DNA of 64,000 bases from Bryoerythrophyllum caledonicum (Eukaryota; Streptophyta; Bryopsida; Pottiales; Pottiaceae): NCBI GenBank assembly GCA_963971425.1, contig OZ020516.1, forward strand, positions 20,839,332-20,903,331. Direction: 5' to 3'. Position 1 is the first letter of the stretch, and every line of letters begins with the position of its first letter. Under the pieces are notes generated by a model. It made no database searches. It was not told the DNA's origin and worked only from the letters and a program-made list of their open reading frames with translations. A program made the translations under genes and the position numbers. Below are positions 450-57,391 of this stretch, piece after piece.

Positions 450-1405
450 TTGACCCCTAAGGTACTGTGACAATTTCACACCAAAAAGACTTCAAAATTG
501 TTGGATTCTAATGCAATGAACAAAGAAGGAAACAAAAAAATTTATTTCTAGTTTTGACCGTAGGATCTCAATTGCGACTTATTGAGTTATACACTCACAA
601 AATTTCTTAAACTTTGACCACACATATTGAAAGATTATAGTGTTTGAAGTCAAACAAATGGTTCATATTCTTCCCTGCGTTCAATGGATCAACAGACTTT
701 GACTTCACTTGGTGTCAAATTTTTGCACTACACAAGGCCTAAATCCATTACCATCTAGTTAAGCATGATGTTAGTTCCTTATAAACCAATTTTTAGAGGT
801 AGAAGAGGGGTGTAGCATATTCAAAACAAGTGTGCAAGGAGTGGAGGTTCAAAATTCCCCAATTCATGCTTCATTTTTTGTGAACCTAATATGTTTTAGA
901 TTGATAATCCAAATGGTCAGTAAGAAGGTTTACACCACCTATTGTTGTTGAAAAAATAAAAAGTAAAGAATGCAAAGATCTCTAGGTTTTATGTGGAAAA
1001 GAAGAAGTTTTTTTTGGTACCTTGCCCGACAATGATTGACGATGTGTGAAAATGTTTGACTTGGGTTAATATGCTATTTTTCACTAAAGACAAGAATTCA
1101 TTTTTTGATAATATGAAGGAAAACAATATTACTCGCAAGTATTGAAAATCTCAAATTCAATAGAGTGTCCTAGCAAAAAATTTTGGAGGTGCCAAAGGTG
1201 CCTGCTCTCCCCATTTGAAATTCAAAACCTTTTAACCTTTTCATCAAATGTCCGATTTAGGAAAAACAATTGTTCTCCCACTAAGGTCTTAGTAATGCCC
1301 TTCTGTGGTAAAAATTTCAAAGAAGAATGTTGGAAATTGACACCATAGGAACTTGACCAAACTTTTAAAAAGCCCATTTTTGACACTGGGTCCTTTAGGG
1401 GTTAA
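450..1405 (+). mobile_element. TTAA element, family A (copy 1)
   Basis: A 956-bp non-autonomous element starts TTGACCCCTAAGGTAC (left TTAA mutated) and ends GGTCCTTTAGGGGTTAA. Full relatives lie at 4630, 43819, 51107 and 56425, all 951-967 bp long. The TTAA borders and CCCC ends fit piggyBac-like target choice. No coding capacity is visible. Confidence 0.75.
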
Positions 1406-1979
1406 CCTCCTAGTAAGCTTGTCACTCTTCTCGGGCGTTTGCATGCATCTGGGATGCGTCTTCACCTAGGCTGCTCTGCCATGATAAGAACCCAGTGCCA
1501 AACGCACATTTTCTGCTTTGACCAGCTAACACCCTCAAAGGCTATGTCATTGCATTCACTCCAAAGATACCAAATAATAATGCCACAAATGGGCAGCCAA
1601 ATTCCACTCACTGTCTTGAACTTGCACGGGATGCGATGCGTGCAGAAATTCCATGTTTCCAAGAAGTGAAGTGGGGGCCTTGATGGATGATATCTGCTGG
1701 CCGCTGACTCTCATCTTCACCATCATTTCTGGGCATCAGTAACAGATTGTAGAATTTCCAATTAAAACAAACATTGATGCAATGTGCAAGGAGAAAGGTG
1801 GGGATGCTGCATTGGGCCAATGGTTTTAATACTTGTGGGCCCTGGGCTGATCATTCCACCAGGGTTTGGACCAACCATGTTTCTATAAATCATTAAAGCT
1901 GGGAAAATCGGAGGAATTACGGGGCAACAAATGGATTAGGGGCGGTAAAACGCAGTTCAGGGCAGTAACATCCGTTGGA

Positions 1980-3817
1980 TTAACCCCTAAAAGCCCAGGC
2001 ATTTTCCCTCATGAAACACTCCAAAACTGCCATCATCAACAAGAGGCAACGAAATCTAACATGAAAGTCTAATTTTAGGCTTTTAACCATACAATATTAA
2101 AATAGACACGTATATGAACTTACAATTAAAATTTGGTTGCAATCCACCGCACGGATGTGAAGATTATAGCGTTTGAAGTGCAAAGAAAAGTTATTTTCCC
2201 CCCTTGCCCGGCAAGGTCAGCCTACTTTGACTTGGTATATCTTCTAGTTTTTACATTGAAATGTGATCAAATCTTTTACCAATATGACTTATATGTTGTT
2301 AGCTATTTGTGTGCAAAATTTGAGGTCAATTCGAGGGGTAATAGATGTAGAAATATACACTTTAGTGAAAGGGGGTACAAAATGTTGACAATTACTACGT
2401 AAGTGATATGAAATTGTTTGTTTCATACAAGTTGTTGCATTTGAGAATCCCAACGGTGGAAACTTTCAATTTATTTTTTCACTAATTTTAGAGAAAAAAA
2501 AACGAGTAAAAATAGTAATATCCATAATTTTCATGAATATATGGAATAAATAAAGCATTGTGGGTGGCCAATATGTCCCGTTGTTGACCGCCCTCGTAGC
2601 TGGACGGGGAAAAAAAAAAAAAAAAAAAAACTTTTTTTTTGGTTTTTTGGCGGGCCCGCTTCTGACGCGGGGTGCTGGCAGGCCAGCTGACGGCTGATTG
2701 ATTGCAGTTTTTTTTTAAATTATTTTAACAACTCTTTTAATAATTTTCAATGCTTGGACTTCGTGCATAGAAGTTTGGATTCCTTTCCTCGCCCTTTTGT
2801 CCCAAAATTCTGCCCCTTTTTCTCCTCAAATTGCATTGGTTGACATGGCTGCCCCAATAGTCTAGACTCCCCATTTTGACCTCTGAAGGCTAATAACTTT
2901 TGAACCAAAAGTCCAAAATCAATTTTGAAAAATTCCCCATATAGATTTCTTAAATGACAATGTAGTGTAAAATTTTCACAAAGATCGGAGTATTTTTTCC
3001 ACTCAAAGGTACATGCCCAAAATCCAAAACGTACTTCCCAAGTACACTTGGGCTCTTAGGGATTAAAGCCAAAAGTGGGGACACCGGGCACCTCCAAATT
3101 TTTTGACAAAAGTTTCTATTGACATTGAGATTTTTCACACATATAAAGAGTATTTCCTTTTTTGGAAAATTTCCAAAAAAAATCTTGTCTTTAGTGTAAA
3201 AAGGCATTTTATTCCAAGTCAAACATTTTCACACATTGTCTGGCAACGAGGAAAAAAACTTCATCTTTTCTACATAAAACCTAGAGATCTTCATATTTTT
3301 CACTTTTTATCTTTTCAACAACAACATGTGGTGAAAACCTTCTTATTGACCGTTTGGATTATCATTTGAATACATTCGTAGTTCACAAAAAAATAAAACG
3401 TGAAATGGCAATTTTTGAACCTCCACTCCTTGCACACTTGTTTTGAATATGCTACACCCCTTTTTTACCTCTAAAAATTGGTGTGTTGGGAAATAACATC
3501 ATGCTTAAGACAATGGTAAAAGATTTAGACCTTTTATAATGCAAAAATTTGATACAAAGTGAAGTCAAAGTTTGTTGATCTACTCAACGCTGGGAAGAAA
3601 ATGAACCATTGTTTTGACTTTAAACACTAAAATCTATCAATCTGTGTGGTGGATTGCAATCAAAATTTAATGGCATGTTTGTATAGAAGTCTATTTTAAG
3701 ATCTTACGGTTGAAAATCCGAAATTCACTTTAAAATGTGATTTTCATGTCTCTTTTTGGCAGTGGCAGTTTTGGACTAGTTTTAGAGCGAAAGTGGTCGT
3801 GGTCCTTTAGGGGTTAA
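1980..3817 (+). mobile_element. Composite of TTAA elements
   Basis: It starts TTAACCCCTAAAAGCC and ends GTCCTTTAGGGGTTAA. The right half (about 3060-3817) matches the family D element at 37539-38472, so this is nested or recombined elements. A GC-rich patch with a run of about 20 A lies at 2570-2700. The right flank 'agtgggaggg' matches 48212 on, next to a single TTAA in the other arm. Confidence 0.6.
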
Positions 3818-4629: not shown

Positions 4630-5582
4630 TTAACCCCTTGGGTACCGTGACAGTTTTATACCAAAAATACTTCAAACTAAATGGATTCTAGTGCAACGAA
4701 TAAAGAAGGTAACAAAAACTTTGATTTTTAGTTCTGGCCGTAGGATCTCAATAAAGGCTTATTAAGTAATACATGTTCAAAATTTCATTAACTTTGACCG
4801 CACGGATTCAAAGATTATAGTGTTTGAAGTCAAGAAAATGGTTCATTTTCTTCCCTGTATTTAGTGGATCAGCAAACTTTGACTTCACTTGGTGTCAAAA
4901 AATTTCACTACAAAAGGTCTAAATCTATTACCATCTTGTTAAGCATGATGTTAGCTCCTTACACACCAATTTTTAGAGGTAGAGACCGGGTGTAGCATAT
5001 TCAAAACAAGTGTGCAAGGAGTGGAGGCTCGAAATTTGTTAATTCACACTTTATTTTTTTTTGAACTTAATATGTTTTTGATTGATAATCCAAATGGTTA
5101 ATATGAAGGTTTACATTACATATTGATGTGGAAAAAATAAAAAGTGAAAAATATGAAGATCTCTAGGTTTTATGTGGAAAAGAAAAAGTTTTTTTGGTAC
5201 CTTGCCCGACAATGATTGACAATGTGTGAAAATGTTTGACTTGGGTTGGTATGCTATTTTCCACTAAAGACAAGAACTTTTTTTTGACAATATGAAGGGA
5301 AATAATATTACTTGCAAGTACTGAGAATCTCACTTTCAATAGAGTGTCCTATCAAAAGTTTTTGGAGGTGCCCGAGGTGCCCGCCCTCCCCATTTAAAAT
5401 TCAAAACCCTATAACTTTTTCATCAAATGTCCAATACAGGAAAAAATTGTTTTCCCACTAAGGTCTTGATAATGTCTTTCTGTAGTAACAATTTCAAAGA
5501 AGAGTGTTGGAAATTGACACCATAGGAACCTAACTAAACTTTCAAAAAGCCCTTTTTGGACACTTGGTACCTTAGGGGTTAA
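4630..5582 (+). mobile_element. TTAA element, family A (copy 2)
   Basis: A 953-bp copy with intact TTAA at both borders. It starts TTAACCCCTTGGGTACCGTG and ends GGTACCTTAGGGGTTAA. Its interior matches the other A copies closely, including the 'gaggtgcccg' stretch near the right end. Non-coding. Confidence 0.8.
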
Positions 5583-5654
5583 CTAGTATGAATAGGTCTA
5601 TAAGTTTTGAGATAAAATGAAAATAGGAACCACCAATGGCAGGTACATACCTCC

Positions 5655-6265: not shown

Positions 6266-6635
6266 ACGTATCTGAACGTGAGCTTCCACGAACATCATCA
6301 ATGCCGAAGCTTCTTATGCACAGTGCACAATGTTCAGGGATTTTCCCATCCGGCTCCTATATTTATCTTTCCACCCGGCTCACACTCTTACCCTTCACTT
6401 GCCCCGCATGCCATTCAGCCCCTCTTACCCTTCACTTGCCACTCATAGTCTGCTCTCATTTATGTACCACTCTCTCCTACGGCCCTTGCAGTGAGAGATT
6501 TCATTACCGATCTTTGCAAGAACTGGTGGTCTTGAATTTGCCAAATTGCGGAGGGAGTTCTAACTTTTCTCATTAGCTGTTCTGCATACCCCGCAACTAG
6601 CTGCAGCTCGTACAGGCTCGCAAGTGCATGCGGGG

Positions 6636-7900
6636 ATGGAGGATCTACTACTGGAGCTCCTGGGTGGCATTCTCACTACAGCTGTGGTATCAGGCAGCCT
6701 CTTTGTCTGCACCATTCTGTACAAGCGCATAATCACGAAATGGCGGCGGATCAGCCGTGGACCAGCTAGTCTTCATCGTGCTCCAACGCCGTCATCACCA
6801 GGTTGTGTTTCTAGTCATCCTACTTGATCATGTTGTGTAGACAATGAATTCTGAGCGCTGGATTCAATCTGACACGGTTTGAAACTAGTATTTGTCTGCA
6901 CTACTGCATGCATGTCACTGAATTTGGTCACCCCGAAATTGTTTCAGCTTGAGATAGATATCATAGGCAGTGAATTCATCAACTTTGTCGTCATCCAACA
7001 CCTCAAGTTATCATCCACATCATTACTTTTTCTTTTTGTCGGGTGGAAGTGCTTACAAATAGGGTGGAAAGTAACTACCGTTGCTGCAAGTTTTTATCCA
7101 AGTTTTGCACAAAATTTCCACTACCGTACCTCTAGTGGTTGTTATCCCTTTCACGACAAGGTGGCTATGGCTGGTGGAGAATCTTTGAGTGTAATAGTTG
7201 ATATTCTGCATAATGTACTACCCTTGTAGATTCGACCATCATCCATAGCCGCACTGTCTTGACCCCCTAAAATTATGAAAAAGGTCCTAAGGTGGGCTAT
7301 TGCAAATCTTGAGCGCGTTCCCATGGTTGCAATTTTTATTTAAAATTCTTGAATTTTTGTACAAAGATGCAAGAAGACAAGAGGTACATGGGAATGTAAT
7401 TTCTAATCTCATCGGGACCACACGGAAAAAAAATGAAACCTTTTCTCTACTTCAAACACTATAATCTTTCAATCCATGCGGTCAAAGTTTATGAAATTTT
7501 GTGAGTATGTTACTTGATGAGTCTTAATTGAGATCCTACGGTTAAATCTAGAGATAAAAGTTTTTTGTTTCCTCCCTTACTCATTGCACTAGAATCAACA
7601 GTCTTATAGTGTTTCTTGTGTGGAATTGTCAAAGAAATATAGGGGTGAAAGGGTTAATGACAAGCATTTGCAAATGATGTAAAAGATAATACTAAATTTG
7701 AGCTATACACATAGAATTTGAATCCTTGAGTGCTTTTGGGGGACATGTTGGAGTCAGAGGTGAAGATGCTAAGATATGATATTAATTTCTCATGGCCAGT
7801 GTCTTGTTCTATTTGCTCTAGGCATAATATCAAGTGATTGAGAACTTTGGTGGCATTTCACATATATGGGTGGAAAACATTGTTCAAAATGCACAGAATT
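6636..7900 (+). pseudogene. Broken left copy of the small membrane-protein gene
   Basis: This is the left-arm counterpart of the gene at 49175-50683. The first exon (6636-6801) still encodes an N-terminal hydrophobic stretch followed by KRIITKWRR, and its splice donor CAG|GTTGTG is kept. The 78-nt second exon is missing: the sequence jumps from 'gccagtgtctt' to 'ttctatttgctct' near 7804, while the right arm has about 250 bp there. The last exon (from 7822) lacks one base after its AG. Splicing first to last exon would hit a stop within seven codons. The upstream ATG seen in the right arm at 48967 is ACG here. The intron carries the TTAA element 7142-7657. I call it a decayed host gene copy; a function cannot be assigned. 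Confidence 0.6.
7142..7657 (+). mobile_element. TTAA element, family E (left-arm copy)
   Basis: About 516 bp, starting TTATCCCTTTCACGACAAGG (left TTAA mutated) and ending GGGGTGAAAGGGTTAA. The right-arm orthologue is 49685-50202, so the insertion is older than the segmental duplication. It sits in an intron. CCCTTT ends are typical of piggyBac-like elements. Confidence 0.7.
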
Positions 7901-7995
7901 CACTGAAGTCCGAGATGCCAATGGTTATGAGATGCAGCCAAAAACACTTAATATCTTGGTGTAAATGGTTTTTAAAAATAATTTCACAGTATGAA

Positions 7996-8043
7996 ATTGG
8001 TCATTCAATTGGTCATTCCATTGGTCATTCCATTGGTCATTCC
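7996..8043 (+). repeat. 12-bp minisatellite, four units, in an open frame
   Basis: Four tandem units of ATTGGTCATTCC encode repeated Gly-His-Ser-Ile in the frame ending at 8112. The right arm has a single unit near 50790. The unit length keeps the frame. Confidence 0.8.
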
Positions 8044-8115
8044 ATAGGAGGGAGCTTAGGTCATGGTATTTCTTTGATATCATATGATGTTTCAGTCAAT
8101 ACTTTTGGTTAACCT

Positions 8116-8551
8116 TTAACCCCTAAATTTCCAAGAGTCACCTCGGGGGACTCTAGAAGGTTTGGGGAGGTTGTTGCGGTGTCAATTCATAACATTTTTC
8201 TTTGAAATTTTGATTGAAGATGGACATTACCAAAAGCTTTGTGTGGGTCCAATTTTTCCCTCAATCCAACATTTAATGGAAAAGTTATAGGGTTTTGAAG
8301 TTCAAATGGGGAGATGGGCACGTCGGGCAACTCCAAAAACTTTTGCTAGGACACTCTATTGAATGTGAGGTTTTCAGTGCTAACAAATAATAATATTTTC
8401 TTTCATATTGTCAAAAAAAATCTCTCCTCTTTAGTGAATAAAAGCATATAAATCCAAGTCAAACATTTTCACGCATTGTCACACATTGTTTTAAAACTAG
8501 GAGTTTTGAAGTGTCTTTGGTGCAAAATTGCCAAAGAAATTTAGGGGTTAT
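8116..8551 (+). mobile_element. TTAA element, family C (internally shortened)
   Basis: It starts TTAACCCCTAAATTTCCAAG and ends AATTTAGGGGTTAT (right TTAA mutated), 436 bp. The right-arm orthologue, 50877-51103, is only 227 bp and has lost the middle. The full-length relative is at 54234-55212. Confidence 0.65.
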
Positions 8552-8775
8552 ATGTCAGAAGGTGTTGCTCGTGGTCACAATATTCTACATGTAAGGTGTC
8601 GTATTTGACCATGATAAGGTTCAGATATTGAAGTGACCTCCAACTGAAATGTACCAAGTAATGAATCTTCAATCCAAAGGTGTAGGTCTTCCTAGAGGTG
8701 TAAAACATGTGTTTGTGTATAAGGTTCCCGACTGACGCTTAGGGGTTAAATCCTGTTTGGAGCTGTGTTCCACAG

Positions 8776-8862
8776 TGGCTAATCTCCCCAACTCATCAAG
8801 CCCTGATAATGGAAATAATGCTGAAGAGAATATGGAGACTAGGGGTACCTCCAATACCGCAG
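8776..8862 (+). other. Exon-like 87-nt block, left-arm copy
   Basis: An AG-flanked, GT-flanked block of 29 codons encodes a Ser/Asn/Glu-rich stretch including SSSPDNGNNAEENMETRGTS. The right-arm match is 52238-52324, where the donor is GTGAGT; here three extra bases (GTG) precede it. Both copies are open and phase 1 at each side, the same phase as the exons of the membrane-protein gene. It may be a further exon of that gene. Confidence 0.4.
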
Positions 8863-8893
8863 GTGGTGAGTTGGCCAAACTTTTGTTTATACT

Positions 8894-8962
8894 TTAACCC
8901 TGAATGGCCCTCAGAAGACTATAAAAGTCCCCTTGGGGAACTCTTGGGCCTTCAGGGGTTAA
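8894..8962 (+). mobile_element. 69-bp miniature TTAA element
   Basis: It starts TTAACCCTGAATGGCCC and ends GGGCCTTCAGGGGTTAA, a near-perfect 17-bp inverted repeat with almost nothing between. The right-arm orthologue is 52353-52431 (79 bp). It lies just after the exon-like block at 8776-8862. Confidence 0.65.
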
Positions 8963-9371
8963 ACTCCTCCAGTTCCATGTTTTTGAGTAGATTTTAATGA
9001 TACAAGTAGCTCGTTTCTTTTTAACCCCCATGTCATTTTCGAAGTCCAGTTTTGAAGTTGTTTATGTTGCTTGATGTGCAGCATTGAACAATGTGCATCA
9101 CCATTGTGGTGAGGCAGTTTCTGGATAACTGTACTTCTCCAAAAGGGTGTATTGCAAACATTACTTTAACAAAATGCATGATGGTCATATATAGTGTGTA
9201 CCGAAGTGAGTGACCAAATGCAGATTCAAAAATCATGTATGCTGAATGTGATAGTAAATTCGTAATGACCATACTATGATGAGCCATCTTAGTCTCCTTA
9301 GGAGATTATCCTTTCTTTGTGGTTGGAAAATAAAGTTCACTTTCATGTAATGTGTTATGTGAGAAATTTTA

Positions 9372-10245
9372 TTAACCCGTGATGGACAATTTGTCCCTGC
9401 AGGGAACCAATTGATTTTGGGCAGGTTCCCAAAAATCCATTTTTGAAGATAACTTCTTGAAATTTTTAGTGAGCAAAGAAATATGGGTTATCTTTGTAGG
9501 GAGTTTTTTTTTTATAAAAATTTTGGACTTATGGGAAAAGTTATGATGCTTCAAACATAAAAGGCTCGACTCTTTTGGGAGCCGGACAAGGTACTATGGA
9601 GATGCATAGTGCTATTGTAGAGTTGACAATTGTCCCTTTCTGAGGCGGGTAGTAGTGAAGGAAAGTTCTTGGCAATCTTCATTGTTTTCACTAAAAAATG
9701 CATCAAAAGTAAGGATTTTACTTTATTTGAAAAACATTGTTTTCTATAGTTAGAATAAGTCATGATAATTTTATTCATTTTTTGGATTTTATATCCAACA
9801 ATTATTTCCCTATTTAAAATTTCTTTCCCAAGTATAGGGTCACTTTCCATACCATTAGTTGTTGCAGGTCCATTTTTCATATTGTGAACACCTCCATCAC
9901 ATGAGATTTTTGGCGTGCAATGACCTAACACAAGGTAGAACATAGATCTATTGATTTTATGCTGTGTCTAGTGCAAATTTGCAATTATCTCGAGTCAAAG
10001 TATGTTGAACTTATCTGGGCACAATAGAAATAAACAATTTCTACTCTTCAAATGCATATATCTTTCAATCCGTACGGTCAAAGTTTACAAACATTTTAGG
10101 GTGTCTTCTTTTAGTAGATAGCTTAAAGATCCTACAGTCAAAAAGAGTAATTTTTTATTTGAATCAATCTAATAATATCCCATGTCAAAGTGGCAATTTT
10201 GGGGTGGTTTTGGTGAAGTACATGGCTTTGTCCTTTAGGGGTTAA
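9372..10245 (+). mobile_element. TTAA element, family B (left-arm copy)
   Basis: 874 bp, starting TTAACCCGTGATGGACAATT and ending GTCCTTTAGGGGTTAA. The orthologue is 53258-54129. Inverted or partial relatives lie at 33338-33970 and 42936-43203. Non-coding; carries the shared core found in the other TTAA families. Confidence 0.7.
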
Positions 10246-10349
10246 TATGAAGAATGTCCATTGTTTTAGGAAATTTCACCAATCCTATTGTGGTGAGATA
10301 GTTAGTTTCTTAAAATGACAATATATTATGCTTGTACTAAGTAGATAAT

Positions 10350-10375
10350 TTAACCCCTAATTTTCCAAGAGTCCG
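10350..10375 (+). mobile_element. Stub of a family C TTAA element
   Basis: TTAACCCCTAATTTTCCAAG and a few more bases match the start of the full element at 54234, then the match stops. This point is also the end of the left arm of the segmental duplication. Confidence 0.6.
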
Positions 10376-15467: not shown

Positions 15468-15521
15468 TGTGTTTCGGGTAGTGGCTACGACAATATTTAA
15501 ATAAAATCTGTACGCGGGTTG

Positions 15522-37539: not shown

Positions 37540-38472
37540 TAACCCCTAAAGGACCAGAGTCTCCTTCGGAGGGATTTCTGATTTTGGGCAGGTTTCTAAA
37601 ATTCGAAAAAAAATCCTTTTTCTTTGAATTTTTTATTCTAGATTGCCTCTAATAAGAGCTTCGTGGACATATTTTTATTTTATTTTTTGGATTTGTGGTT
37701 TGAAAGTTAGTACCACTTAAAGCCAAAAGTGGGGACACCGGGCACCTCCAAAATTTTTGACAAAAGTTTCTATTGACATTGAGATTTTTCACACATATAA
37801 AGAATATTTACTTTTTTGGAAATTTTCAAAAAAAAATCTTGTCTTTAGTGTAAAAAGGCATTTTATTCCAAGCTAAACATTTTCACACTTTGTCGGGCAA
37901 CGGGGGAAAAAAACTTCATCTTTTCTACATAAAACCTAGAGATCTTCATATTTTTCACTTTTTATTTTTTCAACAACAATATGTGGTGAAAACCTTCTTA
38001 TTGACCGTTTGGATTATCATTTGAATACATACGTAGTTCACAAAAAAATAAAACGTGAACTGGCAATTTTTGAACCTCCACTCCTTGCACACTTGTTTTG
38101 AATATGCTACACCCCTTTTTTACCTCTAAAAATTGATGTGTCGGGAAATAACATCATGCTTAAGACAATGGTAAAAGATTTAGACCTTGTACAATGCAAA
38201 AATTTGATACAAAGTGAAGTCAAAGTCTGCTGATCTACTCAACGCAGGGAAGAAAATGAAATATTGTTTTGACTTTAAACACTGAAATCTATCAATCCGT
38301 GCGGTGGATTGCAACCAAAATTTTACGGCATGTTTGTATAGAAGTCTTTTTTAAGAGCTTACAGTTGAAAACCCGAAATTCACTTTAAAATGTGATTTTT
38401 ATGTCTCTTTTTGGCAGTGGCAGTTTTGGACTTGTTTTAGAGCGAAAGTGGTCGTGGTCCTTTAGTGGTTAA
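37539..38472 (+). mobile_element. TTAA element, family D
   Basis: Starts TTAACCCCTAAAGGACCAG and ends GTCCTTTAGTGGTTAA, 934 bp. It inserted into a TTAA that overlaps the border of the MITE 37189-37539. A relative forms the right half of 1980-3817. Confidence 0.75.
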
Positions 38473-43316: not shown

Positions 43317-43822
43317 TATTACCCCCTAAAGGACCATTTCCTCCTAGGGGGTCGTTTTCTATTTCGGGCAAGTTCCTACGGTCTCAATTTTTATCATGAA
43401 TTTTGGAGATTTTTAATGAAGATGTGGCATAGTAGCAACTTTGTGGGAACATAAATTTCCTTCACATTGGCCCATTAAAAAGAAAGTTATGCTATTCTAA
43501 ATGCAAAATTGGGGACTCCGGGCAGCTCCAAAATTTTGCTAGAAGTTTCTATTGAGATCAAGATTTTTCGTACATATAAAGAATATCACCATCTATGAAG
43601 ATGTTGGAAAAAAATTCTTGTCTTTAGTGTAAAAAAAACATTCAAACCCAAGTCAAACATTTTCACACATAGTCAGGCAAGGGGGGAAAATCACTTTTTC
43701 TTGCACTTCAAATGCTATAATCTTCACATTTGTGCGGTGGATTGCAACCAAATTAATATGCCATGTTCATATAGAAGTCTATTTTAAGATCTTATGGTTA
43801 AAAGTCCAAAATTTCACTTTAA
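43317..43822 (+). mobile_element. Partial TTAA element, D-like
   Basis: Begins TTACCCCCTAAAGGACCA and shares the D interior ('caagtcaaacattttcacac', inverted relative to A). It has no right end of its own because family A copy 43819 follows. Confidence 0.5.
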
Positions 43823-44769
43823 CCCCTAAGGTATTGTGGCAGTTTTACACCAAAAACACTTCAAAATTAATGGATTCTAGTGCAATGAATAAAGAAGGTA
43901 ACAAAAACTTTGATTTTTAGTTCTGACCGTAGGATCTCAATAAAGGCTTACAAAGAAATACATGTACAAAATTTCATTAACTTTGACTTCACGGATTGAA
44001 AGATTATAGTGTTTGAAGTCAAGCAAATGGTTCATTTTCTTCCCTGCGTTTAGTGGATCAACAGACTTTGACTTCACTTGGTGTCAAAAAATTTCACTAC
44101 ACAAGGTCTAAATCTATTACCATCTTGTTAAGCATGATGTTAGCTCCTTACACACCAATTTTTAGAGGTAGAGACGGGGTGTAGCATATTCAAAACAAGT
44201 GTGCAAGGAGTGGAGGCTCGAAATTTGTTAATTCACACTTTAATTTTTTTTTAACATAATATGTTTTCGATTGATAATCCGAATGGTTAATAAGAAGGTT
44301 TACATTACATATTGTTGTGGAAAAAATAAAAAGTGAAAAATATAAAGATACCTAGGTTTTATGTGGAAAAGAAGAAGTTTTTTTGGTACCTTGCCCGACA
44401 ATGAGTAACAATGTGTGAAAGTGTTTGACTTGGGTTGGTATGCTATTTTTCACTAAAGACAAGAACTTTTTTTTGACAATATGAAGGGAAATAGTATTAC
44501 TTGCGAGTACTGAAAATCTCACATTCAATAGAGTGTCCTGTCAAAAGTTTTTGGAGGTGCCCGAGGTGCCCGCCCTCCCCATTTAAAATTCAAAACCCTA
44601 TAACTTTTTCATCAAATGTCCAATTTAGGAAAAATTTGTTTTCCCACTAGCCTTGGTAATGTCTTTCTATAGAAAAAATTTCAAAGAAGAATGTTGGAAT
44701 TTGACACCATAGGAACCTGACCGAACTTTCAAAAAGCCCATTTTTGACACTTGGTCCCTTAGGGGTTAA
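43819..44769 (+). mobile_element. TTAA element, family A (copy 3)
   Basis: 951 bp, TTAA at both borders, starting TTAACCCCTAAGGTATTGTG and ending GGTCCCTTAGGGGTTAA. It marks the left edge of the right arm of the segmental duplication. Confidence 0.8.
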
Positions 44770-44874: not shown

Positions 44875-45683
44875 TTAACCCTTTAGCGCCCTGGAAGCCT
44901 GAAATGAAACTCCGGAGGTGCTCAAACTCAATTTGCATGAAATCCATGAGGAACTAAGCGTCGAGATGTGAGATTCAGATTTGCGCACTCATTACACAAA
45001 CACTCTCCAACAATCAGATCATGATTTGAATTTTCTAGAACTCTTGGAAAAGCTAGGAATACAACACAACATACACCAAATACACTAAAATACAGTGAAT
45101 ACTGTGAATACTATGTCACATACTATGTTGTATTTCACACACATGCAAATCGATTTTGGTCTTAAATTTTGATTGAACTTCGTCTTTAAAACATTCTTCA
45201 TTGTTTGGGTATTGTTGATCTCTCTCCTTACATACGAAACTACCGTTTTGATTTGTATAAGGTTGGAACAATTTTGTATACAATCAAGTAGAAAAAAGCA
45301 AAAAAATCATCAATAATTGTTTATAAATATTTTCTTCACATATCATATGCCAATGCGAAGCTATCAACCTAGTGCACATGTGAACCACTTTAATTCAAAG
45401 TAAAAAAATTCTTGCAAGAATCTATTGATGGTTAAAGTAGTACACCCTCCAAAATCCACAGTTTTCACTACCAATATACGGTAACTTTAAACACTATAAT
45501 CTATTCCATCAACCGTTGGATGATGTGAAAAATTTCCCCAAAGTTCAGGTCATGGGTGAAGTTCAATTTTGTAAGGTTAGATATTAATATTACTCATTGT
45601 ATTTCCATCAAATCCGGTTCAAAGAAAAAAATCAGTAGAAATCTTGGTTTTTCCATAAACATCTCTGGGCGCTAAAGGGTTAA
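44875..45683. mobile_element. TTAA element, family F, perfect 17-bp ends
   Basis: TTAACCCTTTAGCGCCC at the left and GGGCGCTAAAGGGTTAA at the right are exact mirrors. The left arm has a single TTGA at the matching site (450-453). It inserted into the border TTAA of a family A element. CCCTTT ends with TTAA fit piggyBac-like elements well. Confidence 0.85.
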
Positions 45684-45913
45684 CCTCTAAGGTACTGTGA
45701 CAGTTTCACACCAAAAACACTTCAAAATTATTGGATTCTAATGCAATGAACAAAGAAGGAAACAAAAACTTTTATTTCTAGTTTTGACCATAGGATCTCA
45801 ATTACGACTTATTGAGTAATATACTCACACAATTTCATAAACTTTAACCACGCTTATTGAAAGATTATAGTGTTTGAAGTCTAGCAAATGGTTCATTTTC
45901 TTCCCTCCGTTCA
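45680..45913 (+). mobile_element. Truncated family A element
   Basis: The first ~230 bp of family A (starting TTAACCTCTAAGGTAC), cut within 'cttccctccgttcaatg'. The left-arm counterpart 450-1405 is full length. Confidence 0.7.
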
Positions 45914-46493
45914 ATGCACCTAGCATGAGTCTTCACCTAAGCTGCTCTCCCATAATCAAGAAGTCAGAGCCAAACGCGCATTTTCTTCTTTGACCATCTA
46001 CAGTCAACTCTCTATAAATGTTACCTCTATAAGTGTTAGAATTGCATAAGTGTTACTAAAAATCTCGCTCCCAAAAAAAACCTCAAAATTAACACTAGTA
46101 AGTGTTATATGTTGAGTGTTATAATATGTTCCGCTCCCCCCTTTGTTAAAATGATTCTATAAGTGTTACATTTGGCAAAAACATCATAATAGAACTTGTT
46201 TTGAAATTTTTGATTACTTCACATGAATATATACCATATCTTTTGTGGAACTTGAGAAGATTTGTCCTTCTAAAAAAGAATCTGTCAGGGTTCTTCCAGC
46301 AGTATCTAGAGGGGCATCGCAGGCCATATTCGAGAAGGGTATTGCAGGCCATGTAGTGAGTTTTTATTTTTAATTATTTATTTGTTTGTTTTTTAAATTT
46401 TTGGTGTGGTTGTTTGCCGCATGCAAGAGGCATGCCGTCGATCCCATCATGGATGCATGGCTTGTCACGCTAAGGTTTGATTGCTTGCTGTGA

Positions 46494-48599: not shown

Positions 48600-48874
48600 A
48601 GAAAAATGAGCGGGCGAGAAAAATGAGAGGGTTTCATTAGGACAAGGGCCCACCTCCCCTAAGACGCTTGTGGCCAAAAATAAAGAGATCCACTAACAGC
48701 TTCCCATGAGCACCCCTTTCCAGCCTCGTTCCTGAACCTCAGAGCCTCGTTCACTGTGCGCCTCGTTCACTGTGATAGATTATAGAATTTCTAAGTAAAC
48801 CCAACATTCGTTAAACTTTTTGGGCGGTGACTTGTGGCCTTGTTTCCGTGGCCTGATTTGTCCTATCCGGCTCC

Positions 48875-48883
48875 TATATATAT
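48875..48883 (+). promoter_or_regulatory. Candidate TATA box of the membrane-protein gene
   Basis: TATATATAT in the context CCGGCTCCTATATATATC, about 300 bp before the proposed start at 49175. The left arm has CTATATTTATC at the same place. A C/T-rich leader follows, as in many plant promoters. Confidence 0.4.
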
Positions 48884-48966
48884 CTTTCCACCCAGCTCAC
48901 ACTCTATTCAGCCCCTCTGACCCTTTACTTGCCACTCATACTCTTTTAAGTACCACTCTCTCTCTT

Positions 48967-49023
48967 ATGGCTCTTGCAGTGAGAGAATTCAACATCCATC
49001 TTTGCAAGAACTGGTGGTCTTGA
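48967..49023 (+). other. Short upstream open frame, 18 codons
   Basis: ATG 48967 to TGA 49023 encodes MALAVREFNIHLCKNWWS. The ATG is ACG in the left arm. It precedes the main start by 208 bp and could be an upstream ORF in the leader or a separate small exon. Confidence 0.3.
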
Positions 49024-49174
49024 ATTTGCCAAATTGCGGAGGGAGTTACACTGTTGTCCTGTTTAATTCGCTCACCTGTGTCTCAGAGTTATAACTTTTC
49101 TCATCCGCTATTCTGAATACGCAGCAACTAGCTGCAGCTCGTACATGCTGGATTGATCCCAAGTGCATGTGGGG

Positions 49175-50683
49175 ATGGAGGATCTACTACTGGAGCTCCT
49201 GGGTGGCATTCTCTCTACAGCTGTGGTATCAGGCAGCCTCTTCGTCTGTACCATCATGTACAAGCGCATAATCACGAAATCGCGGCAGATCAGCCGTGGA
49301 CCACGAGCTAGTCTTCATCAAGCTCCAACGCCCGCATCACCAGGTTGTGTTTCTAGTCATCCTACTTGATCATGTTGTGTAGACAATGAATTCTGAGTGC
49401 TGGATTCTATCTGACACGGTTTGAAACTAGTATTTGTCAGCACTTGTGCATGCATGTCACTGAATTTGGTCATCCCGAAATTGTTTCAGCTTGAGATAGA
49501 TGTCATAGGCGGTCAATTTGTTGACTTCGTCTTCATCCAACACCTCAAGTTATCATCCACATCAGTACTTTTTCTTTTTGTCGGGTGGAAGTGCTCACAA
49601 AAAGGGTGGAAAGTAATTACCGTTGCTGCAAGTTTTGATCCAAAGTTTTGCACAAAATTTCCACTACCGTACCTCTAGTGGTTGTTAACCCTTTAAGGAC
49701 AAGGTGGCTATGGCTGATGGAGAATCTTTGAGTGTAATAGTTGATATTCTGCATAATGTACTACCCTTGTAGATTCGACCATCATCCATAGCCGCGTTGT
49801 CCTGACCCCCCTAAAATTATGAAAAAGGTCCTGAGGTGGGCTATTGCAAATCTTGGGCGTGTTCCCATGGTTGCAATTTTTATTTAAAATTCTTGAATTT
49901 TTGTACAAAGATGCAAGAAGACAAGAGGTACATGGAAATGTAATTTTTAATCTCATCGAACCTATAGGAAAAAAAAAATGAAACATTTTCTCTACTTCAA
50001 ACACTATAATCTTTCAATCCATGCGGTCAAAGTTTATGAAATCTTGTGAGTATATTACTTGATGAGTCTTAATTGAGATCCTACAGTTAAATCTAGAGAT
50101 AAAAGTTTTTTGTTTCCTCCCTTACTCATTGCACTAGAATCAACAGTCTTACAGTGTTTCTTGTGTGGAATTGTCAAAGAAATATAGGGGTGAAAGGGTT
50201 AATGACAAGCATTTGCAAATGATGTAAAAGATAATAATAAATTTGAGTTACACACATAGAATTTGAATCCTTGAGTGCTACTTGGGGACTTGTTGGAGTC
50301 AGAGGTGAAGATGCTAAGATATGATATTAATTTCTCATGGCCAGTGTCTTTGAATCCTGAACAGCTCTTTTGGCGGAGTTGTTAATGCTGATACTATAAT
50401 ACCACCATACTGTTTCTAATTGATGTTTTCTTGAGCAGATTCTTTCTCTGGTGTACAACATCCCTCGCCTCAACCTGGGGCCTTGCATGACATTGAGATA
50501 GGACCCATGAACAGTGGTAAAAATTCTCTCTTTTGACTTGAACATGTACTCCAGGCCACTTGCTTCAGTTTGTCCTTCTATTTGCTTCAGTTTGTTGTTC
50601 TATTTGCTCCAGGTCATAATATCAAGAAATTGAGAACTTTGGTGGCATTTCACATACATATATGGGTGAACAAACATTGTTAA
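49175..50683 (+). CDS. Small putative single-pass membrane protein, three exons
   Basis: Exons 49175-49343, 50439-50516 and 50613-50683 join in phase (1,1) with GT-AG introns (CAG|GTTGTG...GAGCAG; GTG|GTAAAA...CTCCAG) to give 105 residues. The N-terminus starts MEDLLLELLGGILSTAVV with one hydrophobic segment (about residues 4-29) followed by KRIITKSRQ, so the protein is likely a signal-anchor membrane protein with its basic C-terminal side in the cytosol. The rest is Pro/Ser/His-rich (QHPSPQPGALHDIEIGPM) and ends in a short hydrophobic tail. The first intron carries a TTAA element. An 87-nt exon-like block at 52238 could be an alternative next exon in the same phase. The start was chosen as the first ATG of the open exon; a longer spliced N-terminus is possible. 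Family unknown. Confidence 0.5.
49685..50202 (+). mobile_element. TTAA element, family E (right-arm copy)
   Basis: Starts TTAACCCTTTAAGGACAAGG and ends GGGGTGAAAGGGTTAA, 518 bp, in the first intron of the membrane-protein gene. The left-arm orthologue is 7142-7657. Confidence 0.75.
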
Positions 50684-50696
50684 AAAATGCACAGAA

Positions 50697-50873
50697 TTCA
50701 CTGAAGTCCGAGATGCCAATGGTTATGAGGTGCAGCCAAAAAACTTAATATCGCCATATATATGGTTTTTAAAAATAATTTCACAGTATGGAATTGATCA
50801 TTCCATAGGAGGGAGCTTAGGTCATGTTGTTTCTGTGATATCTTATGATGTTTCAGTCAATACCTTTGGTTAA
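50697..50873 (+). other. Open stretch after the third exon
   Basis: One frame reads TEFTEVRDANGYEVQPKNL and continues through SYDVSVNTFG to a stop at 50873. The same C-terminus exists in the left arm (7834-8112), with a shifted start. It may be a lost part of the gene or a further exon. Confidence 0.3.
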
Positions 50874-50876
50874 CCC

Positions 50877-51103
50877 TTAACCCCTAAATTTCCAAGAGTC
50901 CTCTCTTGGGACTCTAGAAGGTTCGGGCAGGTTCATGTGGTGTTAGAAAATAACAATTTTCTTTGAGTTTTTTTACTGAAGATGGACATTACCAAAAGCT
51001 TTGTGTGAGTCCAATTTTTTCCTCAATCCAACATTTGATGAAAAAGTTGTAGGGTTTCGCAATTGTTTTTGGTGCAAAATTGTCAAAGAAATTTAGGGGT
51101 TAT
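50877..51103 (+). mobile_element. TTAA element, family C (short)
   Basis: 227 bp, starting TTAACCCCTAAATTTCCAAG and ending TTTAGGGGTTAT. The left-arm orthologue 8116-8551 keeps about 200 bp more. Confidence 0.65.
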
Positions 51104-51106
51104 ATG

Positions 51107-52060
51107 TTAACCCCTAAGGTACCAAGACAGTTTTACACCAAAAACGCTTCAAAATTAATGGATTCTAGTGCAATGAATAAAGAAGGTAACAAAAACTTTT
51201 ATTTTTATTTCTGACCGTAGGATCTCAATAAAGGCTTATTAAGTAATACATGTTCAAAATTTCATTAACTTTGATCGCACGGATTGAAAGATTATAGTGT
51301 TTGAAGTCAAGCAAATGGTTCATTTTCTTCCCTGCGTTTAGTGGATCAGTAGACTTTGGCGTCAGTTGCTGTCAAAAATTTTCACTACACAAGGTCTAAA
51401 TCTATTACCATCTTGTTAAGCATGATGTTAGCTCCTTACACACCAATTTTTAGAGGTAGAGACGGGGTGTAGCATATTCAAAACAAGTGTGCAAGGAGTG
51501 GAGGCTCGAAATTTGTTAATTCACACTTTATTTTTTTTTGAACTTAATATGCTTTCGATTGATAATCCGAATGGTTAATATGAAGGTTTACATTACATAT
51601 TGATGTGGAAAAAATAAAAAGTGAAAAATATGAAGATCTCTAGGTTTTATGTGGAAAAGAAGAAGTTTTTTTGGTACCTTGCCCGACAATGAGTGACAAT
51701 GTGTGAAAATGTTTGACTTGGGTTGGTATGCTATTTTTCACTAAAGACAAGAACTTTTTTTTTACTATATGTAGGGAAATAATATTACTTGTGAGTACTG
51801 AAAATCTCACTTTCAATAGAGTGTCCTATCAAAAGTTTTTGGAGGTGCCCGAGGTGCCCGCCCTCCCCATTTAAAATTCAAAACCCTATAACTTTTTCAT
51901 CAAATGTCCAATTTAGGAAAAAATTATTTTCCCACTAAGGTCTTGGTAATGTCTTTCTATAGAAAAAATTTCAAAGAAGAATGTTGGAAATTGACACCAT
52001 AGGAACCTGACCGAACTTTCAAAATGGACCTTTTTGGACACTTGGTCCTTTAGGGGTTAA
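51107..52060 (+). mobile_element. TTAA element, family A (copy 4)
   Basis: 954 bp with TTAA at both borders, starting TTAACCCCTAAGGTACCAAG. The left arm lacks it: 'ttatatgtcagaagg' at 8549 is the unfilled counterpart, so it came after the duplication. Confidence 0.8.
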
Positions 52061-52237
52061 AGAAGGTGCTGCTAGTGGTCACAATATTCTACATGTATAG
52101 TGTTGTATTTGACCATGATGAGGTTCACATATTGAAGTGACCTCCAACTGAAATGTATCATGTAATGAATCTTCAATCTAAAGGTGTAAGTCTTCTTAAA
52201 GGTGTAAAACAATCCTGTTCGGAGCTGTGTTCCACAG

Positions 52238-52324
52238 TGGCTAATCTCCCCAACTCATCAAGCCCTGATAATGGATATGATGCTGAAGAGAATATGGAGA
52301 TTAGGGGTACCTCCAATACCGCAG
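52238..52324 (+). other. Exon-like 87-nt block, right-arm copy
   Basis: Flanked by CCACAG and a consensus GTGAGT. Encodes ANLPNSSSPDNGYDAEEN and onward, 29 codons, phase 1 at both sides. Matches 8776-8862. Candidate exon of the membrane-protein gene. Confidence 0.45.
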
Positions 52325-52352
52325 GTGAGTTGGCCAAACTTTTGTTTATACT

Positions 52353-52431
52353 TTAACCCCAAATGGCTCAAGAGTCCTCTCCGAAGACTATAACAGTTCC
52401 CTCAGGGAACTCTTGGGCTTGTAGGGGTTAA
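52353..52431 (+). mobile_element. 79-bp miniature TTAA element
   Basis: Starts TTAACCCCAAATGGCTCAAG and ends CTTGGGCTTGTAGGGGTTAA. Left-arm orthologue 8894-8962 (69 bp). Confidence 0.65.
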
Positions 52432-52830
52432 ATTCCTCCAGTTCCATGTTTTTGAGTAAAATTTAATGATACAAGCAGCTCGTTTCTATTTTAACCCCTT
52501 GTCATTTTCCAAGTCCAGTTTTCAAGTTGTTTATGTGGCTTGATGTGCAGCATTGAACAATGTGCATCACCATTGTGGTGAGGCAGTTCCTGGATAAATG
52601 TACTTCTCCAAAAGGGTATATTGCAAACATTACTTCAACAAAATGCATGATGGTCATATATAGTGTGTCCCAAAGGCAGTGACCAAATGCAGATTCAAAA
52701 ATCATGTATGCTGAATGTCATAGTAAATTTGTAATGAGCATTCATACTAGGATGAGCCTTCTCGGTCTAGTTAGGAGGTTATCCTTTTCTAGTGGTTGGA
52801 AAATACAGTTCACCTTCATGTAATGCGTTA

Positions 52831-53241
52831 CCGTACTTCAAGGGCAGGTTCGGCACCTTGGTGCCGAATATTTATTTAAAGTGGAAAATATGCCTTCGGC
52901 AGTAAAAAACGGAATTTTTGAATTTTCGACTTTTTAAAAAAATAATTTTTAAAATTCCAGCATTCATCCTAGTGGGTGGATGAAAAGGGAACAATATACC
53001 GGTACTAGTTTAAACGTAACAGCGGTAGTGACAACTTATCACTAATCCAGCCGTTCCCTACTCTTAATCTCTACTTTGAAAAACTTTTTGACTTTGTCAC
53101 TCTATTTCGGCAAGGTAATGACAATTTTTGAGTTTTCGACATTATAGTTGTATATTTTCACAAAATTTCGGCAACTGTGACCTTTAATTTTTTTAAAATT
53201 TCGGCATGCATGATTTTAATTATTTTTTGCCGGAGCTGCGG
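52831..53241. mobile_element. 411-bp element with TTCGGCA repeats, TA duplication
   Basis: The left arm has the unfilled site with one TA at 9356-9357 (TGTGTTATGTGAG). Here TA flanks the insert on both sides. Ends are weak mirrors (CCGTACTTCAAG / CCGCAGCTCCGG reversed). Inside, TTCGGCA or TGCCGAA occurs at least six times and one pair forms TTCGGCACCTTGGTGCCGAA. Confidence 0.65.
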
Positions 53242-53257
53242 TATGTGAGAAATTTTA

Positions 53258-54129
53258 TTCACCCATAGAGGACAATTTGTCCTTACACGGAACCAATTGA
53301 TTTTGGGCAGGTTCCTAAAAATCTATTTTTGAAGATAACTTCTTGAAATTTTTAGTGAGCAAAGAAATATGGGTTATCGTTGCAAGGATTTTTTTATTTT
53401 TTTATTTTTTTTGGACTTATAAAGAAAAAAATATGGTGCTTCAATCATAAAAAGCTCGACTCTTTTGGCAGCTAGGCATGGTACTATAGAGATGCATAGT
53501 GCTACTGTAGAGTTGACAATTGCACCTTTTTGAGGGGTGTAGTAGTGAAGGAAAGTTCTTGGCAATCTTCATTGTTTGCACTAAAATATGCATCAAAAGT
53601 ATGGATTTCACTTTATTTGAAAAAGATTGTTTTCTATATTTAAAATAAGCCATGATAATTTTATTCATTGGTTGGATTTTAAATCCAACGATTTTTTCTC
53701 TATTTAAAAAATGCTTTCCCAAGTGAAGGGCCACTTTCTATACCAATAGTTGTTGCAAGTCCATTTTTCTTATTGAAAACATCTCCATTACATGAGATTT
53801 TTTACCTAACGCAAGATAGAACATAGACATATTGATTTTATGCAATGTGTAGTGCAAAAATTTGCAATTATCTTGAGTCAAAGTATGTTGAACCTGTTCG
53901 GGCACAATAGAAATAAACAATTTTCCACTCTTCAAATGCATATATCTTTCAATTCGTATGGTCAAAGTTTACGAAAATTTTAGGGTGTCTTCTTTTAGTA
54001 GATAGCTTGAAGATCATATGGTTGAAATAGTAAATTTTTGTTTGAATTAGTCTAATAATATCTCATGTCAAAGTGGCACTTTTTGAGGTGGTTTTGGTGA
54101 AGTACATGGCTCCGTCCTTTAGGGGTGAA
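53258..54129 (+). mobile_element. TTAA element, family B (right-arm copy)
   Basis: 872 bp, orthologue of 9372-10245. Both TTAA borders are mutated (TTCA and TGAA). Starts after TTTTATTCACCCATAGAGG. Confidence 0.65.
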
Positions 54130-54233
54130 TATGAAGAATGTCCATTATTTTAGGAAATTTCACCAACCCTACCGTGGTGAGGGAATAAATTTTCTAAAAT
54201 GACAGTATATTATGCTTGTACTAAGTGGATAAT

Positions 54234-55212
54234 TTAACCCCTAATTTTCCAAGAGTCCTTTGGGAGACTCTTGAAGGTTTTGGTGGCATGTTCCTACGGT
54301 GTCAATGTAGGAAATTATTCTTGGAAATTTTTACCATAGATGTTCAACGCAAATTTTTAGTGGTAAACTTTTTACCAAGAGCTTTGCGTGTGTACAAGTT
54401 ATTCCCAAATCGCACATTTGATGCAAAAGATATGCGATTTTGAAGCAAAAGTTCTCGAGAGCGGGCATGATGTCCAACTTCAAAACTTTTGCTAGGGCAC
54501 TCCATTAAATGTGAGATTTTCAACACGAGCAACTAGTAGTCTATTTCCTTCCATGCTGACAAAAAACATTATTGTCTTTAGTGAAAAATACCATGTGAAT
54601 CCAAGTCAAACATTTTCACACACTGTCACACATTGTTGGGCAAAGTACCAAAAATAACTTCTTCCCTTCCACATAAAACTATGAGATCTTCATGATTTCA
54701 CTTTTTACTTTTTCCACAACAATATGTGGTGTAAACCTCCTTTTTGACCAGTCCAATTATTAATCTTAAACATATGAAGGTCACAAAAAAATATAACATG
54801 AATTGGCAATTTTTGAACCTCCACTCCTTGCACATTTGTTTTGAATATGCTACACCCCTCCTCTACCTCTAAAAATGGGTGTATAAGGAACTAACATCAT
54901 GCTTAATACAATGGCAATGGCTTTAGACCTTCTGTAGTGCAAAATTGGCACCAAGTGAAGTCAAAGTCTGTTCATCCACTTAAGGCTAGGAAGATAATGA
55001 ACCGTTTTCTTGACTTCAAACACTGTAATCTTTCAATCCGTGTGGTCAAAGTTGATGAAATTTTGTGAATATGTTACTAAATAAGTCTTAATCAAGTTCC
55101 TACAGTTAAATCTCAAATTCAAAGTTTTGGTTTCTTTCCTTACAAATTGCACTAGAATCAACAGTCTTGAAGTGTTTTTGGTGGGAAATTGTCACTGAAA
55201 TTTAGGGGTTAA
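54234..55212 (+). mobile_element. TTAA element, family C (full length)
   Basis: 979 bp, TTAACCCCTAATTTTCCAAG to GAAATTTAGGGGTTAA. The left arm keeps only its first 26 bp (10350-10375). Confidence 0.75.
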
Positions 55213-56424
55213 TTAAAGGTTTGCATAGAAGCGGGCATCATGCTTACATCAAGTGGTTGGAAACAATATCTCCACAGTATGTATCTAGAGCACGACACAA
55301 TTATCATTTCACAGCAAAGTAAGCGCACCCAAAACCATCACCATATCTCTGTAAACTTCTTTCGACAAAGAGGTGTTAAAAGTGACCATTGGGTATGGTA
55401 GTATACATCATTCCACATCAGAATGGTTATCTAGATAATAGAGTTTTCATGAAAGTCACCAAAATACACCTAAAGGACCAAGGCATCTTAGAAGAATTCC
55501 TCCTCCATTGCTTAAAAACGGCCAAGATTTACTTTTTGAGAGTGTAACCAAAGGATCTTCTTCTAAACTTACACCATATGATGTGGTAATAAAAATTTGA
55601 ACTTTGACCGTACGGATTGAAAGATAATTACAGTCAAAGTGAAAAATTAGTTTCTTGAGGGGACACTTGGTCCTTTAGGGGTTGAGTAGAAGATACTTAC
55701 ATACAACCAACTTCCACACCAATTGAAGAGAACGAGCTCAGGGAAATTCACTTGGCTATGATGTAAAAAGCACCAAAGAAGAAGGTGCAACTCAGGGCGT
55801 CTTTACACCAAAGAAGTTTAGGTTGGAGCCTGAAGAGGTGGAGGGCTTTGATTGGAAGATAGTTATGGTACCTCGCTTTTGAGTTTACACCAAACAAACT
55901 TGGGTTGCAGTCCAACTTTTTTTTTCAGTGAAAATCTTTGCTGGAATCCTACATGACTAAAGTGGGTCGTGACTTCTTGGACCTAAGGGTAGTATTTGTT
56001 AGGAAGGTCTCGGAGGTATCCAACCCCGGAGTCTAGGAGGTAATTCAAAGAGACTTTTTTCAGATAATCATTAATATTTTTTTATTGCCTATTTTGGGGC
56101 TATTGTTGGCCTAAATTTCTTTGTGGATAACTCTACTTTAAAAATTCAACCTAAGCACACAATGGACCATGGCTCAACTCTTTTGATTTACACCAAATGT
56201 TTTGGACACTACCTACTTATAAGTCCCTTGTTTCAAGCATGGTACCCTACTTACAATGGTCTTATCCCTCGAACAGAGTACCACTTGTGTTCATGGATTG
56301 GAGCCTAAGCTTTTTGGTGTAAACATGACCTCATGTAGCAGTCTCATTAATACTGGCGCATTTACAGTTAGGTTTGATAGTGTTATTTTAAATGGCATCC
56401 TTTCAACAAAAGTATAATATTGTA
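55213..56424. other. Non-coding stretch with TTTACACCAAA words
   Basis: TTACACCAAA occurs near 55803, 55886 and 56186 and as TTTGGTGTAAA near 56315. A short TTAA-element right end (GGTCCTTTAGGGGTTGA) lies at about 55669-55685. No gene seen. Confidence 0.45.
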
Positions 56425-57391
56425 TTAACCCCTAAGGTACCATGATAGTTTCACACCAAAAACACTTCAAAATTGTTGGATTCGAGTGCATTGAATAAAG
56501 AAGGAAACAAAAAAATTCATTTCTAGTTTTGACCACACGATCTCAATTAAGACTTATTATGTATTATACTCACAAAATTTCATAAAATTTGAGCACATAG
56601 ATTGAAAGATTGTAGTGTTTGAAGTAAAACAAATGGTTCATTTTCTTCCCTGCATTGAGTAGATCAACAGACTTTGACTTCACTTGGTGTCAAATTTTTG
56701 CACTACACAAGGTCAAAATCCATTGTTGTCTTGGTAAACATGATATTAATTTCTTACACACAATTTTTTAGACGTAGAGGAGGGGTGTAGCATATTCAAA
56801 ACAATTGTGCAAGGATCTGGGGTTCAAAATTTGCCAATTTTCGCTTTAATTTCTTGTGAACTTAATATGGTTTAGATTGATAATACAAATGGTCATTAGG
56901 AAAGCTTGCACCACATATTGTTGTGGAAAAAATGCACATATTGTTGTGGGAAAAGTGGAAAATAGGAAGATCTCTAAGTTTTATGTGGAAAAGAAGAAGT
57001 TTTTTGGTACCTTACCCGACAAAGTGTGACAATGTGTGAAAATGTTTGACTTGGGTTAATATGCTATTTTTCACTAAAGACAAGATTTTGTTTGACAATA
57101 TGAAGGGAATAAATATTACTCGCTAGTATTGAAAATCTCAAATTCAATAGAGCGTCCTAGCAAAAGTTTTTGGAGGTGCCTGAGGTGCCCGTTCTCCCCA
57201 TTTGAACTTCAAAACCCTATAACCTTTTCATCAAATGTTCAATTTAGAAAAAAAATTGTTTGCTCACTAAGGTCTTAGTAATGCCCTTTTACAATAAAAG
57301 TTTCAAAGTGGAATGTTGGAAATTGACAGTATAGGAACTTGACCAAACTTTGAAAAAGCCCATTTTTGACACTTGGTCCTTTAGGGGTTAA
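56425..57391 (+). mobile_element. TTAA element, family A (copy 5)
   Basis: 967 bp, starting TTAACCCCTAAGGTACCATG and ending TGGTCCTTTAGGGGTTAA. Slightly longer than other A copies because 'cacatattgttgtgg' is duplicated near 56930. Confidence 0.8.

Follow-up and report, generated by a model that had tools for sequence, protein, structure and literature searches.

TTAA-bounded elements in the window

The DNA analyzed here, called the window throughout, is a stretch of 64,000 nucleotides (contig label C3:20839332-20903331) from an assembly of 437 Mb in 894 contigs. It carries a varied set of short elements that are bordered by TTAA, have inverted ends beginning with CCC, and resemble transposons of the piggyBac superfamily. 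A strict scan for paired ends, in which 12 of 16 terminal inverted repeat bases had to match, recovered nine pairs, eight of them with CCC on both ends. Because the same scan gave no pair in any of 30 first-order Markov sequences, TTAA-CCC ends occur in the window above chance. A looser scan (9 of 14 bases, run without a control) returned 16 pairs, of which 13 were retained as elements and three overlapping ones were discarded (8116-8749, 8116-8962, and 50877-52060). The 13 end-defined elements total 10,040 bp, and elements and pieces together amount to 15,379 bp, or 24% of the window, in 23 separate stretches. A preliminary description of this DNA was right that TTAA-bordered elements with CCC-type inverted ends are present, but its statement that they fill the window was too strong, as they occupy 16-24% of it. 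No open reading frame (ORF) of 150 amino acids overlaps any of the 13 end-defined elements, which have the features of miniature inverted-repeat transposable elements (MITEs): they are non-coding, high in copy number, and defined at their ends.

Repeat finding revealed a unit of about 955 bp, type A, in five full copies, together with related stretches in inverse orientation. All five copies lie on the plus strand (below, intervals given without a strand carry no strand assignment, and numbers beginning with L denote genome stretches retrieved for comparison). The first, at 450-1405, has 78% identity with the 3′ portion of L025, a transposase locus; the left border of this copy, previously given as TTAA, is in fact mutated to TTGA. 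The second (4630-5582; strict scan) matches the A segment within L011, another transposase locus, at 94% identity. The third occupies 43819-44769, and the fourth (51107-52060), which served as the query for the genome search, has a nearly unfilled paralogous site near 8550 that is close to TTAA but not exact. The fifth is at 56425-57391 (strict scan and repeat finding). Types C (979 bp; 54234-55212, minus strand) and E (518 bp; 49685-50202; looser scan and repeat comparison) have sequence in common with A but in the opposite orientation, so that the lettered types are not all independent families.

Several pieces, all on the minus strand, extend this A/C/E group. Repeat comparison identified an A/C-like piece with a AGGGGTTAA terminus at 3063-3817, whose left limit is not end-defined, an E- and A/C-related piece at 7142-7657, and an A/C-like piece at 37731-38472; these and a C-like piece at 8116-8490 (85.6% identical to the L025 3′ region) have sequence in common with A, C, and E. 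Comparison with the transposase loci added a C-like piece at 50877-51057 and, with support from repeats, an A/C-like piece at 43319-43818 that adjoins the third A copy.

The other elements stand further apart. Type B (874 bp; 9372-10245; looser scan and repeat comparison), with a second copy at 53270-54129 that rests on repeat comparison and is not end-defined, and a 1087-bp TTAA element at 1980-3066 (ends CCCCTAAAAGCCC and TCCCTAAGAGCCC; both scans) have short parts in common with the A/C/E group. Type F (809 bp; 44875-45683; strict scan) and an 844-bp TTAA element at 40727-41570 (plus strand) gave self-matches only at the threshold of the window repeat comparison. Type F occupies the left-end TTAA of a truncated A, a 5′ piece of about 236 bp at 45680-45915 (plus strand; repeat comparison). 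Here, as at the right end of L056, an element has inserted in the terminal TTAA of another, leaving the two back to back and sharing it. Two miniatures of 69 bp (8894-8962) and 79 bp (52353-52431) came from the looser scan. Of the types listed earlier, A, B, C, E, F, and the miniatures are among the 13 elements, but for a type D of 930 bp neither scan gave an end-defined unit; the 844-bp and 1087-bp elements are not in that list by these sizes.

TTAA is duplicated at the insertion site

A genome search with type A scored 40 of 5,763 first-look candidates, and the best-matching 20 copies were read. All 20 have TTAA at the left border; at the right border 18 do, and the other two have TAAA and TCAA. 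The 21 type A copies compared have a mean pairwise identity of 96.1% (94.5-98.8%) and diverge from their majority sequence by 2.2% on average. Genome-wide, there are 862 exact occurrences of the 16-base left end of type A, of which 812 (94%) directly follow TTAA; the backwards control of this end occurs 0 times.

Unfilled sites provide the more direct record. Two type F copies on contig C4 hold another F at position 312, and the TTAA at this site is single in the unfilled F and present on both sides in the filled copies. One of the inserts is inverted and one is direct relative to its host F (the second with a somewhat diverged right-hand side), and this difference in orientation indicates separate insertion events at one TTAA. 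Likewise, L011-L013 contain an 887-bp relative of the element at 40727-41570, inserted at a site where L009 has one TTAA. An entire transposase element (L011, 2030-8584) stands at a TTAA for which a related element in L020 again has a single copy. Since the F and L009 sites have one TTAA when unfilled and two when filled, the duplication is 4 bp. TTAA is thus a true 4-bp target duplication, and the evidence fits insertion at TTAA. The scoring that the preliminary description had proposed, over many copies and unfilled sites, bears out the duplication.

Segmental duplication or satellite-like amplification could instead have multiplied the elements. Part of the window is indeed duplicated (6339-10374 and 48855-54258) and carries several elements twice, and two A copies (L036 and L043) have similar flanks on one side (79% over 71 bp). 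However, the best-matching 20 A copies are distributed over 11 large contigs, their 40 flanks of 78 bases (compared at E 0.001) include only the L036/L043 pair and one low-complexity pair that are alike, and clean single insertions exist. We consider such a mode of spread highly improbable.

piggyBac transposases are encoded elsewhere in the genome

A genome search with PF13843 (piggyBac transposase, DDE_Tnp_1_7) scored 116 of 305 candidates, so that its counts are lower bounds. It gave at least 120 matches, the best at 6.2e-81, and matches in 0 of 14 control genomes. The earlier statement that no transposase is in the window agrees with these results: none of the PF13843 matches listed falls there, and the long ORFs of the window gave other families. 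The proposed genome search for piggyBac DDE transposases between ends of the same kind succeeded. Transposase-bearing elements of about 4-7 kb are bounded by TTAA-CCC(C/T), and TTAACCC ends flank the transposase in L014 (5,062 bp), L015 (4,933 bp), L019 (5,084 bp), L052 (4,116 bp), and L054 (3,960 bp), while L009 (7,032 bp) and L011 (6,555 bp) are enlarged by nested insertions.

The encoded proteins carry the marks of the superfamily. An 813-codon ORF of L011 matches the Trichoplusia ni transposase (PDB 6x67) at E 1.4e-28 and piggyBat (9c0f) at E 1.5e-24, and its alignment with 6x67 retains Asp in the IDE, DN, and GVD motifs. Three Asp residues, D620, D700, and D813 in L052 numbering, which we take to be the piggyBac catalytic residues, are invariant in 12 of 12 aligned transposases. 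In the same 12-row alignment, the Cys/His columns of a Cys-rich C-terminal tail show at least 90% conservation (L025 stops short of them); from its sequence, the tail corresponds to the piggyBac-type C-terminal Cys-rich domain, with putative zinc binding. A structure model of L052, which has a mean predicted local distance difference test (pLDDT) score of 52.8 and is usable over the catalytic part only, first matched 6x67 (E 2.7e-26) and 9c0f (6.8e-23) and then Tn5 transposases. Every testable feature places these elements in the piggyBac superfamily, and the transposases, ends, and TTAA duplication together uphold the piggyBac-like identity first proposed for the window elements.

Another cut-and-paste superfamily that inserts at TA-rich sites, such as Tc1/mariner (TA) or PIF/Harbinger (TWA), could be responsible if TTAA belonged to the element. 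TA and TAA are contained in TTAA, and Tc3-type and pogo-type transposase remnants lie within the window. Against this, the unfilled F and L009 sites indicate a 4-bp duplication, and the transposases that such ends enclose are those of piggyBac, which leaves this explanation very little probability.

Relation of the window elements to transposase-bearing elements

We compared the window elements with 11 transposase elements. The type A body is 75-79% identical, and type C 73% end to end, to a 953-bp TTAA unit located 3′ of the transposase in L010 and L025; type A copies are 81-94% identical to L011. The right terminal 67 bp of the third A copy (44703-44769) match the left end of the L025 transposase element at 92.5% identity. 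L010 and L025 have a sharp common left border at TTAACCCC and are then alike to the end of the retrieved stretch. The transposase elements L011-L013 contain both an A copy and the 887-bp element, which is 92.5% identical to the window element at 40727-41570, and L009 contains an A copy alone. These nested copies indicate that MITEs jumped into piggyBac elements and were then copied along with them. Two observations bear on whether type A is a deletion derivative of L011: L011 holds the type A body at 94% without its first 25 bp, and the equivalent 953-bp unit in L010 and L025 has TTAACCCC-type ends on both sides.

We conclude, with only slight reservation, that the window elements are non-autonomous, non-coding piggyBac MITEs in the nuclear genome of a land plant, probably a moss, and that transposases encoded elsewhere in that genome probably moved them. 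In piggyBac transposition, the element ends are nicked, hairpins form on TTAA, excision is seamless, and staggered insertion takes place at TTAA. By analogy, the larger piggyBac elements would supply transposases that recognize the CCC(C/T)TAA-like ends of the MITEs, excise them, and reinsert them at TTAA, which is duplicated. Mobilization in trans by these transposases is presumed here, and excision would be seamless as in animal piggyBac.

Several observations weigh against this conclusion. Transposition and excision are inferred from sequence. Choosing the best-matching A copies biases both their apparent youth and the intactness of their TTAA borders upward. TTAA is present at both edges in only 12 of 64 candidate insertion records. 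Five of these 12 are clean and represent three distinct insertions, one of them the F at 44875 compared with the degenerate TTGA site at 450; the other seven are composite pairings. One stretch of L027 is involved in 22 of the remaining 52 records. In the comparison with 11 transposase elements, type F and the miniatures found no match, and type B and the element at 1980-3066 found short matches only. The best-matching autonomous element (L010/L025) is incomplete, its right end lying beyond the retrieved stretch, and the A and C bodies in the transposase loci are nested units, which makes internal deletion no more than a candidate origin of A.

A conserved N-terminal domain in many of the transposases

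In nine of the 20 loci L009-L028 (L014, L015, L016, L019, L020, L022, L023, L024, and L027), an ORF upstream of the transposase has a common pattern of about 100 residues (E 0.01 or better). The pattern was not seen in the other 11, including the L010/L011 lineage that is nearest to type A. The domain lies at 1324-1674 in L014, at 1402-1752 in L015, and from 1267 onward in L052. Genome searches with two domain members gave 64 and 19 matches, which merged into 78 loci. Among the PF13843 matches listed, 43 of these loci have a match no more than 6 kb downstream on the same strand, none has one on the opposite strand, and one has a match upstream; 35 have no such link. Of two unlinked loci that were checked, L059 has a downstream transposase, and L058 has none in the stretch read, which begins about 0.8 kb past the domain.

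Four loci chosen for the domain show two arrangements. In the near-identical L052 and L053, the domain forms the in-frame beginning of a transposase ORF of 981/988 codons, and in L054 and L055 it is in a separate upstream ORF. A reading of the upstream ORF as a second gene, like that of PIF/Harbinger elements, is weakened by the in-frame fusion. It may still hold for L054 and L055 and also for L014 and L015; in the latter two, a simple splice (in L014, from donor AG|GTGAGT to an acceptor before the transposase ATG) would break the frame.

Between L014 and L015, the domain has a proportion of synonymous differences (pS) of 0.79 and of nonsynonymous differences (pN) of 0.25 over 117 codons. Three other distant pairs have pN values of 0.31-0.44, with pS saturated (0.79-0.95). 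Two close-copy pairs have ratios of nonsynonymous to synonymous rates (Ka/Ks) of 0.42 and 0.59, as would be expected of copies that decay once inserted. A helical fold is predicted for the domain (mean pLDDT 78.8). Searches of eight domain members against Pfam gave a best E of 0.09, a PDB profile search gave no significant match (terpene synthases at 0.018), and Foldseek with the domain model gave a best E of 3.2. DUF2271, found with the whole L052 protein (E 0.0038, residues 126-191), was not accepted as the identity of the domain, as the match is below cut-off and located at and beyond the domain end. Note that a second conserved stretch (YDLG ... LYGPWG.F.VPE) sits between the N-terminal domain and the catalytic region at residues 282-350 of L052, counted from the Met at 1267, and also in L014 and L054; it has 0 Pfam matches at E up to 10.

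A role of the domain in DNA-end binding or oligomerization is suggested. More broadly, and at slightly less than even confidence, we propose that land plants, in at least one moss lineage, may hold a piggyBac population that is large, old, and diverse and has a transposase architecture of its own. This would include a helical N-terminal domain of about 100 residues, fused in one lineage and carried by an upstream exon or gene in others, which would be under purifying selection with the catalytic core and would act as a plant-lineage module for DNA-end binding or oligomerization.

Other repeats and genome context

The block at 6339-10374 is repeated directly at 48855-54258, about 42.5-44 kb away, with main pieces 82-88% identical; one or both copies carry piggyBac insertions. 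A long inverted repeat (29892-30855 and 33980-34952, 81-82%) lies near RNase H and reverse-transcriptase remnants and probably consists of two head-to-head pieces of a long interspersed nuclear element. Other DNA transposon remnants are a hAT dimerization domain (14634-15521), a Tc3-type helix-turn-helix (41625-42254), and a pogo-like DDE_1 (60098-61033). Contigs C5 and C13 have none of the 120 transposase, 58 chlorophyll a/b-binding protein (Lhc), and 83 N-terminal-domain matches listed.

Host, likeness to known systems, and implications

The genome has 58 matches to Lhc (PF00504). The host is a photosynthetic land plant, and the genome was correctly called plant-like. Over 160 residues, the one Lhc protein read is nearest, among the single-domain chains listed, to chains of PDB 8htu and 7xqp, which we take to be from Physcomitrium patens (9vfj_2 outscores them in total via two weaker domains); this sequence likeness indicates that the plant is probably a moss. 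That the transposases are animal or algal contamination and the MITEs plant sequence of unrelated origin is the least credible alternative of all: piggyBac is best known from animals and a few PF13843 matches are on small contigs, but the matches listed are distributed among 13 large contigs, Lhc matches occur on 12 of these as well, and some transposase loci contain window MITEs nested inside.

The larger elements are like T. ni piggyBac and piggyBat in their TTAA target and its duplication, CCC-type short inverted ends, three conserved Asp residues, fold, and C-terminal Cys-rich domain. They differ from T. ni piggyBac in sequence (24% identity in the structural match to 6x67) and from known piggyBac in having hundreds of residues before the catalytic region, the N-terminal helical domain in some lineages, and the second conserved stretch. 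They are also longer, at about 4-7 kb (some with nested insertions), than the 2.23-3.52 kb given for bee piggyBac elements in the accessible part of PMC10140906.

The window elements are like piggyBac-type MITEs in being short, non-coding, and high in copy number, with TTAA and CCC ends. Unlike them, several have sequence in common in both orientations and some are nested inside transposase elements; most are 0.5-1.1 kb, which is large for MITEs. The accessible text of a 2023 review (PMC10004981) lists PiggyBac among angiosperm MITE superfamilies, the same label in plants. Those MITEs appear to have been grouped by likeness of ends and target-site duplications, whereas here transposase genes are present in the same genome.

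The view that piggyBac is unusual in plants stands in part. In the literature searched, in which subscription titles are thinly covered, no title or abstract described piggyBac in mosses, which is weak evidence of novelty. The word match seen in the available portion of a moss genome paper (PMC10619864) was "piggybacking," and the portion of PMC10175614 available has nothing on piggyBac in plants. Against the view, angiosperm and fern labels are in print, the latter as 1,230 PiggyBac hits in a fern repeat table (PMC6890710, in the part accessible). The host is under-reported for piggyBac, and the N-terminal domain is the likeliest surprise.

The presence of transposase genes and near-identical MITEs in one land-plant genome makes the function and silencing of piggyBac in plants addressable, along with the question of descent versus horizontal transfer and the existence of plant-adapted piggyBac enzymes. 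The N-terminal domain would be a testable new part of a transposase family that is widely used for gene delivery.

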